A stretch of 15,274 bases of DNA from Planctomycetota bacterium (lineage in GTDB: Bacteria > Planctomycetota > PUPC01 > DSUN01), in the NCBI GenBank assembly GCA_016872875.1, contig VGYW01000192.1, positions 1 to 15,274 on the forward strand, given 5' to 3'. Below, in pieces: positions 4,609-13,470 of the stretch; position 1 is the stretch's first letter, and every line of letters starts with the position of its first letter. The position numbers and the translations under genes were made by a program. The notes beneath the pieces are model-generated. The model did no database searches and was not told where the DNA came from. It worked only from the letters and a program-made list of their open reading frames with translations.

Positions 4609-4690
4609 CACGGACAGACACGGACCGACACGGACGGCCGGATTCCGCCCTCAGGAGCGCCGTCCGTGTCCGTCCGTGTAGGTCCGTGCC
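4609..4690. repeat. Snap-back element with 10-nt units (CACGGACNNA) between tdh and kbl
   Basis: The left arm (4609-4637) reads as CACGGACAGA, CACGGACCGA, CACGGACGG. The reverse complement of the right arm (about 4660-4689) reads CACGGACCTA, CACGGACGGA, CACGGACGG. Mismatches between the arms fall only at the free positions of the unit. A loop of about 22 nt separates them, so the tdh-kbl transcript could fold into a long hairpin here. The T5 run at 4692-4696 follows on the plus strand, opposite to gene direction, so this is not an obvious terminator for tdh. Confidence 0.85.
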
Positions 4691-4708
4691 GTTTTTCTTC
4701 ACGGTCTC

Positions 4709-5737
4709 TCAGCGTTCGCTCCAGGTGAGGACGACTTTGCCGCTCTGGCCGGAGCGGGCGACCTCGAAGCCCTTCTCGAAGTCGGTGTAGCCGAAGCGGT
4801 GGGTGATGACGGGCGTGATGTCGAGCCCGCACTGGATCATCATGGTCATCTTGTACCAGGTCTCGTACATCTCGCGGCCGTAGATGCCCTTGATCGTGAG
4901 GCTGTTCCAGATGACGGTGGGCCAGTCAATGGCGGCGGGCGGCAGGATGCCGAGGAGGGCGATCTTGCCGCCGTGGCACATGTTGGCGATCATGTCGCGG
5001 AAGGCCTCGGGGCTGCCCGACATCTCCATCCCCACGTCGAAACCCTCTTTCATGCCGAGCTTCTTCTGTGTGTCCCGAAGCGAGTCGCGCCGGGCGTCGA
5101 GCGCCACCGTCACGCCCATCCTGCCAGCCAGCGCCAAGCGATAGGGGTTGATGTCGGTGATCACCACGTGCCGTGCGCCGCAGTGCCGTGCGATGGCGGC
5201 GGCCATCAGGCCGATCGGCCCGGCGCCCGTGATGAGCACGTCCTCGCCCATCACGTCGAACGAGAGGGCCGTGTGCGTCGCATTGCCGAGCGGGTCGAAC
5301 GCGCTCAACACCTCCAGCGGTATGTTAGGGTCGGCCGGCCACACGTTCGTGACGGGGATCGAGAGGAACTCGGCGAAGGCCCCGTCGCGGTTGACTCCGA
5401 TGCCGACGGTGTTTGGGCAGAGGTGGCGGCGGCCCGCCAGGCAGTTGCGGCACCGCCCGCACACCACGTGCCCCTCGCCGCTCACGAGGTCGCCCGGCTT
5501 GAAGTCGGTCACGTTGTCGCCGAAGTCCTCGACGATGCCGACGAACTCGTGGCCGATGACGGTGGGCACTCGGATGGTCTTCTGCGCCCAGGCGTCCCAG
5601 TTCCAGATGTGGACGTCGGTCCCGCAGATGCTCGTCTTCAGGATGCGGATGAGCACGTCGTTCCTGCCCACCTCGGGCGTTGGAACGTCCTGGAGCCAGA
5701 GTCCCTCTTCCGCTTGCGCCTTCACCAGTGCCTTCAC
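4709..5737 (-). CDS. tdh: L-threonine 3-dehydrogenase
   Basis: This zinc-dependent medium-chain dehydrogenase oxidises L-threonine with NAD+ to 2-amino-3-ketobutyrate, which Kbl then splits. The 342-residue length matches the family (341 in E. coli). Catalytic zinc residues are C38 with H63-E64 in 'VIGHEFVGIVEDFG', the structural zinc quartet is C93, C96, C99 and C107, and the nucleotide-binding loop is GAGPIG at 171-176. T40 and H43 in 'CGTDVHIW' are also conserved. The start is GTG at 5737, where alignment to the family begins with 'MKALVKAQAEEGLWLQDVP'; the upstream AAGGGCGAG is a fair ribosome site. It is the first gene of a tdh-kbl operon with a TATAAT box about 50 nt upstream. Cytoplasmic, probably a homotetramer like its relatives. 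Confidence 0.96.
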   Translation of the reverse strand: MKALVKAQAEEGLWLQDVPTPEVGRNDVLIRILKTSICGTDVHIWNWDAWAQKTIRVPTVIGHEFVGIVEDFGDNVTDFKPGDLVSGEGHVVCGRCRNCLAGRRHLCPNTVGIGVNRDGAFAEFLSIPVTNVWPADPNIPLEVLSAFDPLGNATHTALSFDVMGEDVLITGAGPIGLMAAAIARHCGARHVVITDINPYRLALAGRMGVTVALDARRDSLRDTQKKLGMKEGFDVGMEMSGSPEAFRDMIANMCHGGKIALLGILPPAAIDWPTVIWNSLTIKGIYGREMYETWYKMTMMIQCGLDITPVITHRFGYTDFEKGFEVARSGQSGKVVLTWSER

Positions 5738-5786
5738 GCTCGCTCGCCCTTCGTCTGAGGTGGTTTGGCTGTACCGGGTCGGCAGG

Positions 5787-5816
5787 ATTATACTCCAAAG
5801 CCGCCTGTGGCCGCAA
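5787..5816 (-). promoter_or_regulatory. Candidate sigma-70-type promoter for tdh-kbl
   Basis: On the minus strand a perfect TATAAT (5787-5792) lies 18 nt downstream of TTGCGG (5811-5816). Transcription would start near 5780, giving a leader of about 40 nt before the tdh GTG. The -10 box is convincing; the -35 box matches only its first half. Confidence 0.55.
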
Positions 5817-5837
5817 AGGGCATCCGGCCGGACCTAG

Positions 5838-5887
5838 GAAAAAAAATCCCGGAAAATCCTTGACAAGCAGCAAATGAGGAGTATAGT
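5838..5887 (+). promoter_or_regulatory. Strong candidate promoter for the 5893-6107 RNA
   Basis: TTGACA at 5860-5865 and TATAGT at 5882-5887 are separated by 16 nt. An A-rich stretch (5839-5846) and 'GGAAAATCC' (5851-5859) lie just upstream, resembling an UP element. The predicted start is about 5893-5896. No plus-strand protein gene follows for 1.6 kb, so the promoter points to a non-coding RNA. It is divergent from the tdh promoter. Confidence 0.7.
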
Positions 5888-5892
5888 TACAT

Positions 5893-6074
5893 GCGGCAGG
5901 GCAAGTAAAGGCCTGGTACGGCCAGGCAGTCGAGGCCAAGTCTGTCGGAGAGTGGCAGCACGCTAGCACGGCAGGCTACGTTGAACGGTGGAGGTGCTTT
6001 GTTGCTTCCGCCGCCGTGTGGTGCGGCTTGCTAAGGGACGATGGCGTTCGACACAGCTTAAGGCCTTGCCCTGC
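5893..6074 (+). ncRNA. Probable structured non-coding RNA, about 180 nt, 6S-like architecture
   Basis: The RNA would start 6-8 nt after a TTGACA/TATAGT promoter and contains no credible reading frame. Its ends pair: 5896-5904 (GCAGGGCAA) with 6066-6074 (TTGCCCTGC), nine perfect pairs, then 5910-5914 (GGCCT) with 6061-6065 (AGGCC). An inner helix joins 5942-5947 (CTGTCG) to 6049-6056. Local hairpins occur at 5911-5927 (GCCTGG/CCAGGC), which competes with the GGCCT pairing, and at 6010-6027 (GCCGC/GCGGC). A perfect 14-bp hairpin follows at once. Closed ends, a long interrupted rod and a size near 180 nt resemble 6S RNA, the RNA polymerase regulator. I see no sequence signature that proves this, and tmRNA, RNase P RNA and SRP RNA motifs are absent. 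That an RNA gene is here is fairly likely; its identity is a guess. Confidence 0.55.
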
Positions 6075-12284: not shown

Positions 12285-12307
12285 ATTGGAGCAGGAGACA
12301 CTCTCGC

Positions 12308-12832
12308 ATGCCGAGCGTGACCAATGAGTTGACCGTTTCCGAGCTCGCCAAGCAGTTCCAGGCGATGCGCAACGCGGTGCTGGTGGACTTCACGGGGCTG
12401 AAGGCCGGACAGGCAGACGCGCTCCGCGCGAAGCTCCAGGAGCAGGGCGCCGACATGCTCGTGGTGAAGAACACGCTGGCGGCCCAGGCCCTGCGCAAGC
12501 TGAACCTGGCACACGCCGCCGAGCTCCTCACCGGCCCCATTGCGTTCGTCTACGCCGAGGAGCCGACCGCGCTGGCGAAGTTCCTGCGCGACTGGAGCAA
12601 GAAGGAGCGGGTGCTGAAGTGGCGTGGCGCCCTCGTGGAGGGCGAGGCCCTGGGGCCTGAGGGGGTGGACGCCCTTGCGGCGCTGCCGCCGGCCAAGGTG
12701 CTCCAGGCCCAGGTGGTGGGCGCCATCGCGGCGCCCCTCAGCCGCCTCCTCGGCGCGCTTCAGGGCATCTTGCGAAACTTCGTCGGCGTGGCCAAGGCCA
12801 TTGCCGACAAGAAAGGTGAGCCGGTCCAGTAA
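12308..12832 (+). CDS. rplJ: Large-subunit ribosomal protein L10
   Basis: The 174 residues fit the family. 'RNAVLVDFTGLKAGQADALR' and 'MLVVKNTLAAQAL' belong to the rRNA-binding domain, and 'GPIAFVYAEEPTALAKFL' follows. The C-terminal helix ('LSRLLGALQGILRNFVGVAK') is where L7/L12 dimers attach. AGGAG (12293-12297) lies 10 nt before the ATG. It precedes rplL, its partner in the ribosomal stalk. Confidence 0.97.
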   Translation: MPSVTNELTVSELAKQFQAMRNAVLVDFTGLKAGQADALRAKLQEQGADMLVVKNTLAAQALRKLNLAHAAELLTGPIAFVYAEEPTALAKFLRDWSKKERVLKWRGALVEGEALGPEGVDALAALPPAKVLQAQVVGAIAAPLSRLLGALQGILRNFVGVAKAIADKKGEPVQ

Positions 12833-12834
12833 CA

Positions 12835-12910
12835 GGGGATGAATGGATGACTGGATGGGTGGATGGTTGTCAGACATTCATCCATTCATCCGCCAATCCA
12901 GTCATCCCCC
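12835..12910. repeat. Snap-back element with 8-nt units (GGATGNNT), rplJ-rplL spacer
   Basis: The left arm begins GGGGATGAATGGATGACT and continues with two more octamers; the reverse complement of the right arm begins GGGGATGACTGGAT. The 36-nt arms differ mostly at free octamer positions. The element starts 2 nt after the rplJ stop and leads directly into the GGTTGCGGCC hairpin module. Confidence 0.9.
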
Positions 12911-12939
12911 TTGGTTGCGGCCAGCGGCCGCTTTAGGAG
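12911..12939 (+). promoter_or_regulatory. GGTTGCGGCC-N3-GGCCGC hairpin plus ribosome site before rplL
   Basis: GCGGCC (12917-12922) pairs with GGCCGC (12926-12931) around AGC, then TTTAGGAG; the AGGAG (12935-12939) is 9 nt before the rplL ATG. It is nearly identical to the copy before rplA. Confidence 0.6.
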
Positions 12940-12948
12940 AAAAGAGCG

Positions 12949-13365
12949 ATGGGACAGGAAGTGGCAACCTCCGAGCTGTCGGCCGAGGCCCAGCAGGTGG
13001 TGGAGATCGTGAAGCGGCTCCCCGCGCTCCAGCTCGCGCGGCTGGTGAAGGCCCTGGAGAGCGAGTTCGGGGTCACGGCGGCGGCCCCCGTGGCCGTGGC
13101 CGCCGTGGCGGGCGCGCCCACGGCAGGCCCGGCCGAACCTATCGAAGAGAAGACCAGCTTCGACGTGCACCTGGCCGACGCCGGCGCCCAGAAGATCCAG
13201 GTCATCAAGGCGGTCCGCGAGGTCATCAGCGGCCTGGGCCTCAAGGAGGCCAAGGCCCTGGTGGATTCCGCCCCCAAGGCGGTGAAGGAGGGCGCCACCA
13301 AGGAAGAGGCCGAGAAGATCAAGGCCGCACTCGAGAAGGCCGGCGCGAAAGTCGAAATCAAGTAG
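12949..13365 (+). CDS. rplL: Large-subunit ribosomal protein L7/L12
   Basis: The 138 residues are slightly longer than the usual 120-130. The N-terminal dimer/L10-binding domain covers about residues 1-44 ('VVEIVKRLPALQLARLVKAL'). An Ala/Pro/Val-rich hinge follows at about 45-62, then the factor-binding C-terminal domain ('KTSFDVHLADAGAQKIQVIK', 'GLGLKEAKALVDSAPKAVKE'). It recruits EF-Tu and EF-G to the ribosome in multiple copies. The start is ATG 12949 with a good AGGAG site. Confidence 0.97.
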   Translation: MGQEVATSELSAEAQQVVEIVKRLPALQLARLVKALESEFGVTAAAPVAVAAVAGAPTAGPAEPIEEKTSFDVHLADAGAQKIQVIKAVREVISGLGLKEAKALVDSAPKAVKEGATKEEAEKIKAALEKAGAKVEIK

Positions 13366-13397
13366 GCGCTCCGGTCAAGGCCTGGGCGCGTGTGGGC

Positions 13398-13470
13398 GGG
13401 GATGAATGGATGAGTGGATGGGTGGGTGGGTGTCAGGCAGACATCCATTCATCCAAACATCCACCCATCC
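13398..13470. repeat. Snap-back element with 8-nt units (GGATGNNT), rplL-rpoB spacer
   Basis: The left arm begins GGGGATGAATGGATGAGT and ends in GGGT repeats; the right arm (about 13438-13470) carries CATCCATTCATCCAAACATC. Arms of about 33 nt pair apart from free positions. Unlike its relatives at 11297 and 12835, it is not followed by the GGTTGCGGCC hairpin. Confidence 0.88.

Follow-up and report, generated by a model that had tools for sequence, protein, structure and literature searches.

Several gene spacers of a planctomycetal contig (VGYW01000192.1, positions 1 to 15,274; this whole stretch of 15,274 nt is termed the window) contain hairpins in which each arm is a tandem array of a short unit, with different units in different spacers. 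What kind of process would place one architecture, built from several sequences, in so many spacers? The initial annotation described nine stretches of this design and favored a common generator, or selection for hairpins between cotranscribed genes, over one mobile family. The analysis below points instead to several families of mobile-like hairpins.

Tandem-armed hairpins in the window

The nine stretches withstand scrutiny as examples of one design. Arms at all nine window sites consist of tandem units of 3–10 nt that fold as hairpins; with one stretch folded per site (at the 11297 site, the inner hairpin only), z scores range from -3.07 to -10.21, and 0–2 of 200 shuffles fold as well. Under a strict detector, for which both arms must be gap-free, span 16 nt or more and show a tandem period, the window yields six elements, whereas 20 dinucleotide shuffles yield none. 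A relaxed version raises the count to seven, compared with a mean of 0.02 and a maximum of one in 50 shuffles, and none of the seven overlaps a gene, in a window that is 84% genic by our own gene list. The CGGTNAT (7349, short) and GACAGAN (9531) sites are missed by both detectors. Detector matches at runs of N were dropped (L003, L013, L024 and L239; three shuffle matches are the same N runs), and L085 repeats L004 among the detector loci. The elements of the window are as follows.

4608..4689 (arms 4608-4638 and 4659-4689): CACGGACNNA hairpin in the tdh-kbl spacer; z -7.68
6113..6234: CTGATTN (GATTGCY) hairpin in the spacer between a putative small RNA and a Gfo/Idh gene; z -3.10
7345..7400: short CGGTNAT hairpin upstream of the Gfo/Idh gene, seen by folding and by neither detector; z -3.07
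9249..9319: GGATGNNT 71-nt hairpin of 4+4 units with tip GTCTGAC, in the tuf-rpmG spacer; z -7.08
9531..9625: GACAGAN hairpin with a longer right arm, in the rpmG-tRNA-Trp spacer; z -4.26
11297..11468: two GGATGNNT hairpins in the rplK-rplA spacer, the inner at 11342-11418; inner z -7.66
12199..12282: CGT/ACG hairpin in the rplA-rplJ spacer; z -10.21
12837..12907: GGATGNNT 71-nt hairpin in the rplJ-rplL spacer, followed by a TTGGTTGCGGCC hairpin; z -6.16
12908..12931 (+): companion hairpin CCTTGGTTGCGGCC-nnn-GGCCGC, before the ribosome-binding site
13400..13470: GGATGNNT 71-nt hairpin in the rplL-rpoB spacer; z -5.91

A search of Rfam at gathering thresholds returns only tRNAs, and the elements sit in spacers of protein and tRNA genes, not in a group I intron. 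The location of elements inside a ribosomal operon is confirmed by the hairpins in the rplK-rpoB spacers, which shows that the intercistronic spacers of a ribosomal operon accept such insertions.

Because the 11297-11468 element consists of two GGATG (GGATGNNT) hairpins, one enclosing the other, the nine sites hold ten hairpins. The view that architecture is shared but sequence is not stands insofar as several unit sequences are present; it is wrong for half of the hairpins, since a single unit accounts for five of the ten, and three of those five can be aligned with one another as copies of a single 71-nt hairpin. The reported concentration of arm mismatches at the free positions of the units also holds, with mismatches at 30 of 40 free and 6 of 147 fixed positions in the six elements for which gap-free phasing is possible, a count that is partly circular because the unit was taken from the definition in the initial annotation itself.

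Census and orthologous spacers in a sister species

The initial annotation had suggested searching the whole genome and comparing the spacers of relatives. The nearest relative compared, G001, whose genes are 78–88% identical, stands in for the source genome. Its 953,255 bp contain 69 tandem-armed hairpins, compared with none in shuffles of 800 kb of the same genome; 60 lie outside predicted genes and nine inside, counts that, like all gene-context counts here, are approximate because gene calling was crude (within the window, one antisense frame took the place of secE-nusG-rplK). Some of the nine sit in long open frames. Confinement to spacers, true of the window under the relaxed detector, thus becomes a location mostly in spacers.

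The G001 hairpins fall into a restricted number of unit families that recur, with about ten units in one genome, and five of the six unit types of the window recur there, one of them loosely. The CACGGACNNA family is present at other places, and the CGT/ACG element has its counterpart in a CGTC family, some members of which have an outer palindrome. For the CGGTNAT pattern, exact arrays are absent from the G001 sample, but equally from the window. Since window and G001 have the same families at different sites, an assembly artefact seems unlikely from the sequences.

No element is common to the two species at eight orthologous spacers, whose flanking genes are 78–88% identical, and two of the eight hold a hairpin of a different unit. 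The G001 Gfo/Idh spacer contains a CACGGAC-type hairpin, with its arms the other way round, in place of the window's CTGATTN element, and in the rpmG-tRNA-Trp spacer the place of GACAGAN is taken by a GAGCNNC element enclosed by a second palindrome. The G001 rplK-rplA spacer, only 15 nt long, has no counterpart of the 11297 element, and four ribosomal spacers of G001 contain no tandem-armed hairpin. The families look like small copied elements that are gained and lost rapidly between sister species.

Copied hairpins and their possible origin

The commonest unit, the octamer GGATGNNT, occurs as a copied 71-nt hairpin inserted in both orientations, mostly with unrelated flanks. The flanks are not wholly unrelated, since some copies share the right-hand companion hairpin; CCTTGGTTGCGGCC-nnn-GGCCGC also follows the 11297 element and stands alone near 10255. 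The GGATG hairpin pattern has 219 overlapping matches in G001 and none in 98 relatives or in 391 further genomes from the phylum (the two sets overlap), none in reverse reading and none with the opposite arm polarity. Once oriented, the 4+4 copies converge on a common sequence: relative to the master L217, L231 differs at 1 and L133 at 2 of 71 positions, and among the 32 places that score at least 50/71 against this master the fixed columns are 95% conserved and the free columns 66%.

Other families behave similarly. Three AATCCGT copies (L218, L243 and L246) have the same variant, AATGCGT, at unit 2, and two more (L144 and L147) both have AATCCGC; some CGTC copies align, flanks included, over 129–229 nt. 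Elements also occur within the loops of others: AATCCGT holds AAGC, TGACGCG holds GAGC, and GACAGA holds CAATACC. GAGC lies inside a GTAGTGCGG palindrome and, in five cases, CGTC lies inside a GAGTATGACC palindrome. Homologous copies thus occupy different and lineage-specific sites in both orientations, sometimes nested in loops, and most families have a single arm polarity (61:0 for GGATG). The AAGGGAC family has both (4 and 3).

The elements, about 50–110 nt long with outliers above 200 and with degenerate units mostly of 7–10 nt, are best explained, at a probability of roughly 0.6, as several families of non-autonomous dispersed hairpin repeats working like REPINs. The copied entity would be the whole hairpin, placed in either orientation in gene spacers and at times in the loop of another hairpin. 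Its copying may involve a single strand that folds and is processed by a trans-acting enzyme, and slippage within the arms of existing hairpins may give rise to new unit families. The free positions of GGATG would be sites already unpaired in the arms of the ancestor, where copies vary most. Several mobile-like families fit better than repeated slippage plus template switching, one of the processes first proposed. The two polarities of AAGGGAC and the reversed CACGGAC arms count against mobile families, as a single master does not explain them, and a partly shared tip across families (49 vs 12 elements) counts against separate families and hints at something more.

No candidate mobilizer follows the elements. 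The initial annotation suggested looking for a transposase- or reverse-transcriptase-like gene that tracks with them, and of the two kinds of gene sought, Y1 transposases and reverse transcriptases, neither does so. G001 has 19 Y1 matches, two of them under the curated cut-off, and three elements lie within 1 kb of one, compared with 2.5 expected, which argues against a RAYT/Y1 enzyme; G103 has no Y1 match, yet it contains three tandem-armed hairpins in 65 kb. Reverse transcriptases, considered as writers of the units, number three in G001 and 0–13 elsewhere, with no pattern. Around 62 GGATG elements, no direct repeat of 4–6 nt exceeds shuffled flanks as a target-site duplication would.

It is conceivable, if unlikely, that each hairpin arose in its own spacer, slippage making an array and template switching its inverted arm, with family likeness due to units that slip easily. 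Heptamers are the commonest period in G001 (30 of 69 elements) and, according to the excerpted text of PMC4679880, outnumber every other class of long simple repeat in most bacterial genomes; the spacers of one genome do hold different units; and the left-arm units of some GATT-type elements (e.g. L226:10976 and L235:16419) differ consistently from the right-arm units, as slippage within arms would give. However, separate sites hold near-identical copies whose variant units coincide in kind and position, and the 71-nt ancestor of GGATG, the common AATCCGT variants and the CGTC copies that align with their flanks argue that units were not made anew at each site. Free positions of GGATG agree across arms in 30–31% of cases, below the 37–41% expected by chance, which rules out arms that are inverted copies of each other. 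The likeliest source of this low agreement is an ancestor whose arms were mismatched from the start and which was inserted both ways round. The uniform polarity of this family is likewise against local generation, as is its narrow unit number: of 61 elements (four from the window), 28 are exactly 4+4, 59 include an arm of four units, and none has more than six, so that in GGATG, the family counted, the broad distribution expected of slippage repeats is not seen.

Selection for long intercistronic RNA hairpins, serving processing, protection or attenuation between co-transcribed genes, is very improbable as the main cause. Predicted folds are strong, elements lie inside the rplK-rpoB operon, and 49 of 55 placed elements have co-directional neighbors, whereas among spacers of 60 bp or more the proportion is 281 of 399 (Fisher p 0.003). 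Yet mismatches in the transcribed sense, counted in 106 elements, show no excess of G.U over A.C (85 vs 82, p 0.88). GGATG, although asymmetric, favors neither orientation relative to transcription (9:6, p 0.61), and four ribosomal spacers of the sister species, including the spacer of 15 nt, are without any such element. The selective explanation in the initial annotation is therefore not upheld. Equally doubtful is a single superfamily that conserves one tip, AGAGAAG-loop-CTTCTCT, and exchanges the arms around it for new tandem arrays; a unit-writing enzyme active at both 3' ends might be responsible. Element loops are enriched 4–6-fold in AGAAG relative to other spacers (10.3 and 13.0 vs 2.3 per kb; z 3.2 and 5.1 against shuffled loops), and the tip has one polarity in 49 elements and the other in 12 (88 neither), compared with 15 and 21 ordinary spacer hairpins (140 neither). 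TGACGCG (9:0), AATCCGT (8:0), CGTCCCG (3:0), GGATG (14:1) and AAGGGAC (6:1) have this tip in common, counts that are not independent because copies within a family are related. In CGTC, however, the tip is opposite (0:7), GATT has 0 of 8 either way, GAGC is split 3:2, 42 of 57 GGATG elements have neither, and no candidate writing enzyme was found. That all or most families form one mobile class with a conserved tip and enzymatically written arms, which would also underlie the heptamer stems of Xanthomonas and Nostoc, is likewise a long shot; if true, unit sequence could change in concert while architecture and tip stayed.

Relation to known repeats

The hairpin design is known before from single bacteria under other headings, and, judging from the excerpted parts of the papers cited in this section, the nearest precedents are the inverted GGGANTN heptamers of Xanthomonas and the trnL P6b stem of Nostoc. 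The Xanthomonas GGGAATC/(GGGANTN)n repeat is a degenerate heptamer with fixed and free positions, mostly in arrays of four units, with 70 and 75 cases of two arrays convergent on opposite strands; 89–93% of the repeats are intergenic, mostly between co-directional genes (PMC4692102). The present elements share the degenerate tandem unit, the fixed and free positions and inverted pairs of one polarity (in GGATG; AAGGGAC has both). Unlike Xanthomonas, where one unit was studied for G-quadruplexes, about ten units occur here and few are G-rich: runs of three or more G are not fixed in the consensus of GGATGNNT, CTGATTN, GACAGAN, CACGGACNNA or CGTC, and AAGGGAC has one. In a second Xanthomonas species repeats are undetected or strongly mutated at 16% of places and the type is usually preserved (PMC4692102), whereas 0 of 8 sites are kept here, although the divergence of the two species pairs may differ. 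In the Nostoc trnL intron, the P6b stem consists of heptamers of Class I (TDNGATT) or Class II (NNTGAGT), and one motif repeatedly replaces the other at the same site with the secondary structure kept (PMC4476775). Degenerate heptamers with free positions and a structure kept through sequence change are thus common to both; P6b is one group I intron locus with two motifs, unlike the many motifs found here in spacers genome-wide.

REP and REPIN elements (PMC3116915, PMC3733652) resemble the present hairpins in being short, imperfect, non-autonomous, dispersed in many copies, mostly extragenic and of several families per genome, as far as their excerpts describe. They differ in that the arms here are tandem arrays, with neither a GTAG foot tag nor an excess of RAYT neighbors; among 258 feet, GTAG occurs 5 times (median 4-mer, 8) and CGTC 15 times, compared with 33 for the commonest 4-mer. 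TAACTGA repeats of Beggiatoaceae, cyanobacteria and Bacteroidetes are also intergenic heptamer arrays, many near start codons and some at ribosomal protein genes, but they are direct arrays of a single unit, with only one inverted case, in BOGUAY, in the excerpted report (PMC4679880). MITEs (PMC4853749, excerpted) are likewise short, with terminal inverted repeats and without coding capacity; the present elements differ in that the 62 GGATG elements show no target-site duplication and the inverted repeats are themselves tandem arrays.

In these excerpts, bacterial heptamer repeats have so far been treated singly, by motif and group, and interpreted as products of slippage, as quadruplexes or as sites for proteins. 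In the present case, about ten motifs share one hairpin design in one genome, as copies with common ancestors that are sometimes nested in loops. With related and nested copies and 0 of 8 sites shared, what copies these hairpins becomes a concrete question, and the findings suggest that simple-repeat counts elsewhere may hide mobile hairpins. The design also occurs in loci titled Chloroflexi, Nitrospirae, Cyanobacteria, Deltaproteobacteria and Bacteroidetes.

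Tandem-armed hairpins in the window and beyond

Nine hairpins with arms built of short tandem units were described in window spacers by the initial annotation, and all nine sites fold, with z from -3.1 to -10.2 (one stretch folded per site). Most of the claimed arms are recovered by a repeat finder and most of the units by Tandem Repeats Finder. A dedicated detector that requires inverted arms, each with a tandem period, picks out six elements in the window versus none in 20 dinucleotide shuffles and, at looser limits, seven elements, all outside genes, versus 0.02 per shuffle (50 shuffles). 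Arm mismatches do fall mostly at the free positions of the unit (30/40, versus 6/147 fixed positions, in six window elements). The site at 11297–11468 is tandem-armed as proposed, but it comprises two hairpins of the commonest family, GGATG, one enclosing the other, rather than a single hairpin.

Genes of the window
uroporphyrinogen-decarboxylase-like gene, ADP-ribosylglycohydrolase gene
kbl, tdh (names by Pfam class and order)
Gfo/Idh gene, four tRNAs, tuf, rpmG, tRNA-Trp, secE, nusG, rplJ
rplK, rplA, rplL, rpoB (start only), assigned by order and length, not family search

The closest sequence by rplA (86% amino-acid identity), locus L001 of a planctomycete metagenome assembly, belongs to an 8.9 Mb genome, G001; the next relatives reach at most 63%. 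The elements extend beyond the window: 52 contig stretches of G001 (953,255 bp), picked irrespective of content, hold 69 tandem-armed hairpins (7.2 per 100 kb), and shuffles of 800 kb of this sample hold none. Their period is 7 nt in 30, 8 in 14, 9 in 7 and another length in 18. The proposed confinement to spacers holds for all seven detected in the window and for 60 of the 69 in G001, although 88% of the sample is predicted coding; the other nine lie within predicted genes, some in long open frames. Neighbouring genes are co-directional around 49 of the 55 elements with both neighbours callable, versus 281 of 399 spacers (p 0.003). Six relatives at 60–63% rplA identity yield three elements in 305 kb. 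Among 114 loci around rplA, which total 1.28 Mb with some overlap and derive almost entirely from other genera and phyla, 14 distinct elements remain once three N-run artefacts and a duplicate are discarded. Their record titles place them in Planctomycetota, Chloroflexi, Nitrospirae, Cyanobacteria, Deltaproteobacteria and Bacteroidetes, and nearly all have other units. The architecture is thus widespread and the heavy load local.

None of eight comparable sites has an element common to the window and G001, with flanking genes 78–88% identical (kbl and tdh about 87%). The tuf–rpmG site was left out, as the G001 contig starts within rpmG. The change of unit envisaged between relatives is seen in two spacers, small-RNA–Gfo and rpmG–tRNA-Trp.

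Element sites compared between the window and G001
tdh–kbl: window CACGGAC; G001 other palindromes, no detector match
small-RNA–Gfo: window CTGATTN; G001 CACGGAC-type hairpin, conserved flanks
Gfo upstream: window CGGTNAT; G001 other sequence, no detector match
rpmG–tRNA-Trp: window GACAGAN; G001 GAGCNNC
rplK–rplA: window element; G001 none detected, spacer 15 nt
rplA–rplJ, rplJ–rplL, rplL–rpoB: window elements; G001 none detected

A candidate unannotated small RNA lies at 5860–6112 of the window. It has TTGACA/TATAGT boxes 16 bp apart, of which TTGACA is conserved in G001 and TATAGT is not, and a rod-like predicted fold (z -5.2) with a strong GC hairpin at the end; this predicted shape recalls 6S RNA. 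The candidate is about 84% identical in G001, the only one of 59 genomes searched to hold it, and its best Rfam match is far below threshold.

Unit families and their copies

Recurring units in G001 include GGATGNNT, AATCCGT, TGACGCG, CGTCCCG, CGTC and GAGCNNC, together with AAGCNNC, AAGGGACNN, ACACGGACNN, GATTNCC, GACAGAN and a few more. Five of the six window unit types recur there, CTGATTN only loosely, as GATTNC[CT]; CGGTNAT gives no exact array in G001, an unfair test since the pattern also misses the window's own element. The GGATGNNT hairpin pattern has 219 overlapping matches in the whole G001 genome and none in 98 relatives or 391 other genomes of the phylum (overlapping sets); it likewise has none when read backwards or when arm polarity is switched. 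All 61 exact-unit GGATGNNT elements (four from the window) have the same polarity; 28 have both arms of four units, and in 59 at least one arm is of that size.

Ten elements with 4+4 units and a 7-nt tip reveal a common sequence once brought to one orientation. Relative to the copy at L217, taken as master, those at L231 and L133 differ at one and two of 71 positions. Thirty-two places (three in the window) score at least 50/71 to the master, with fixed columns 95% and free columns 66% conserved, a set anchored on GG pairs, which somewhat favours fixed columns, and whose lowest scorers have other tips. The flanks of GGATG copies are mostly unrelated, except that some have a companion hairpin on the right in common. 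Several AATCCGT elements carry the variant AATGCGT as second unit, AATCCGC is common to two others, and the variant-bearing elements have a tip in common. Some CGTC elements align over 129–229 nt, flanks included, and five have an outer palindrome in common. The common GGATG sequence, the AATCCGT variants and the CGTC flank alignments indicate copying; judged by sequence, the elements are copied families, not single events. The view that unrelated units spoke against one mobile family finds no support here, since copies align to a common 71-nt sequence and variant units recur in place.

The AAGGGACNN and CACGGACNN families show both arm polarities, unlike GGATG (in G001, L148:2857, L226:7538, L233:3106, L248:12050 and L293:817-879).

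Arms, tips and routes of dispersal

Whole hairpins have been dispersed. GGATG arms are not inverted copies of each other, because their free positions agree at 119/398 aligned from outside and 124/398 from inside, below the 147–152 expected from unit shuffling and the 160–162 from arms swapped between elements. A mismatched-arm ancestor inserted in both orientations explains such below-chance agreement; selection against perfect palindromes is a possible alternative. GGATG elements show no target duplication, which fits a single-strand route and also decay. Of the gene kinds suggested, Y1 transposases and reverse transcriptases do not track with the elements: Y1 transposases are frequent in G001, with 19 matches, and three elements lie within 1 kb of them versus 2.5 expected; reverse transcriptases show no pattern. 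Other palindromes adjoin two of three Y1 matches inspected. Selection for long hairpins between cotranscribed genes, also put forward initially, is without support at the RNA level, since transcribed-sense mismatches are 85 G.U versus 82 A.C (106 elements) and asymmetric GGATG elements lie nine with transcription and six against.

Loops of families with different arms are enriched in AGAAG (10.3 and 13.0 per kb versus 2.3 in other spacers; z 3.2 and 5.1 versus shuffled loops). AGAAG stands left with its complement right in 49 elements, the reverse in 12 and neither in 88, versus 15, 21 and 140 in ordinary spacer hairpins, counts in which within-family copies are not independent. The tip is clear in five families; CGTC is reversed (0:7), eight GATT elements show neither form, GAGC is 3:2, and GGATG has neither in 42/57. 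A tip common to different-armed families is at most a lead.

Cyanobacterial STRR repeats belong to an older literature. Two published systems come closest. In Xanthomonas, (GGGANTN)n arrays most often have four units and form 70–75 inverted pairs per genome; their authors read them as quadruplex formers (PMC4692102). The Nostoc trnL P6b stem has seen repeated replacement of its heptamer class (PMC4476775). Nearest in behaviour are REPINs (PMC3116915), and CGTC-tagged REPs are likewise described without a linked transposase (PMC3733652). Among the papers listed by a literature search, with subscription journals largely outside its coverage, none appears to describe several families of tandem-armed hairpins within a single genome.

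Nesting and companion repeats

Three elements are located in loops of other tandem-armed elements. A GAGCNNC element occupies the loop of a GTAGTGCGG palindrome, whose window copy (9775–9835) is empty, and a GAGTATGACC palindrome encloses CGTC elements in five cases; palindrome loops may be favoured sites. A dispersed palindrome, GTAGTGCGGGCTTCAGCCCG..CGGCCTGAAGGCCGCACTAC, has a loop of 8–20 nt, filled with other repeats in the L001 and L243 copies. A second small hairpin reads TTGGTTGCGGCC-nnn-GGCCGC or a near variant; nine of its 21 loose pattern matches look real, seven of these with ATG at most 45 nt downstream and six directly after a GGATG hairpin.

Locations of companion repeats
GTAGTGCGGGCTTCAGCCCG..CGGCCTGAAGGCCGCACTAC palindrome: window 9775–9835; L001 66–225; G001 L124, L128, L219, L227, L243, L249, L274
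TTGGTTGCGGCC-nnn-GGCCGC hairpin: window 10255, 11470, 12911; G001 L124, L153, L213, L217, L247, L285

The nusG–rplK spacer of L001 holds, at about 1350–1525, a tandem array of a 25-nt unit resembling CTTGCTCCCGAAGGGAGCACAGAGT, with seven copies by eye; in the window no spacer separates these two genes. For six of 21 GGATG copies a crude gene finder predicts a 6-nt overlap between the element and the end of the adjacent gene, whose stop codon would then be the first unit's TGA (GGATGA), for example at G001 loci L217:3784, L231:17956 and L245:11837.
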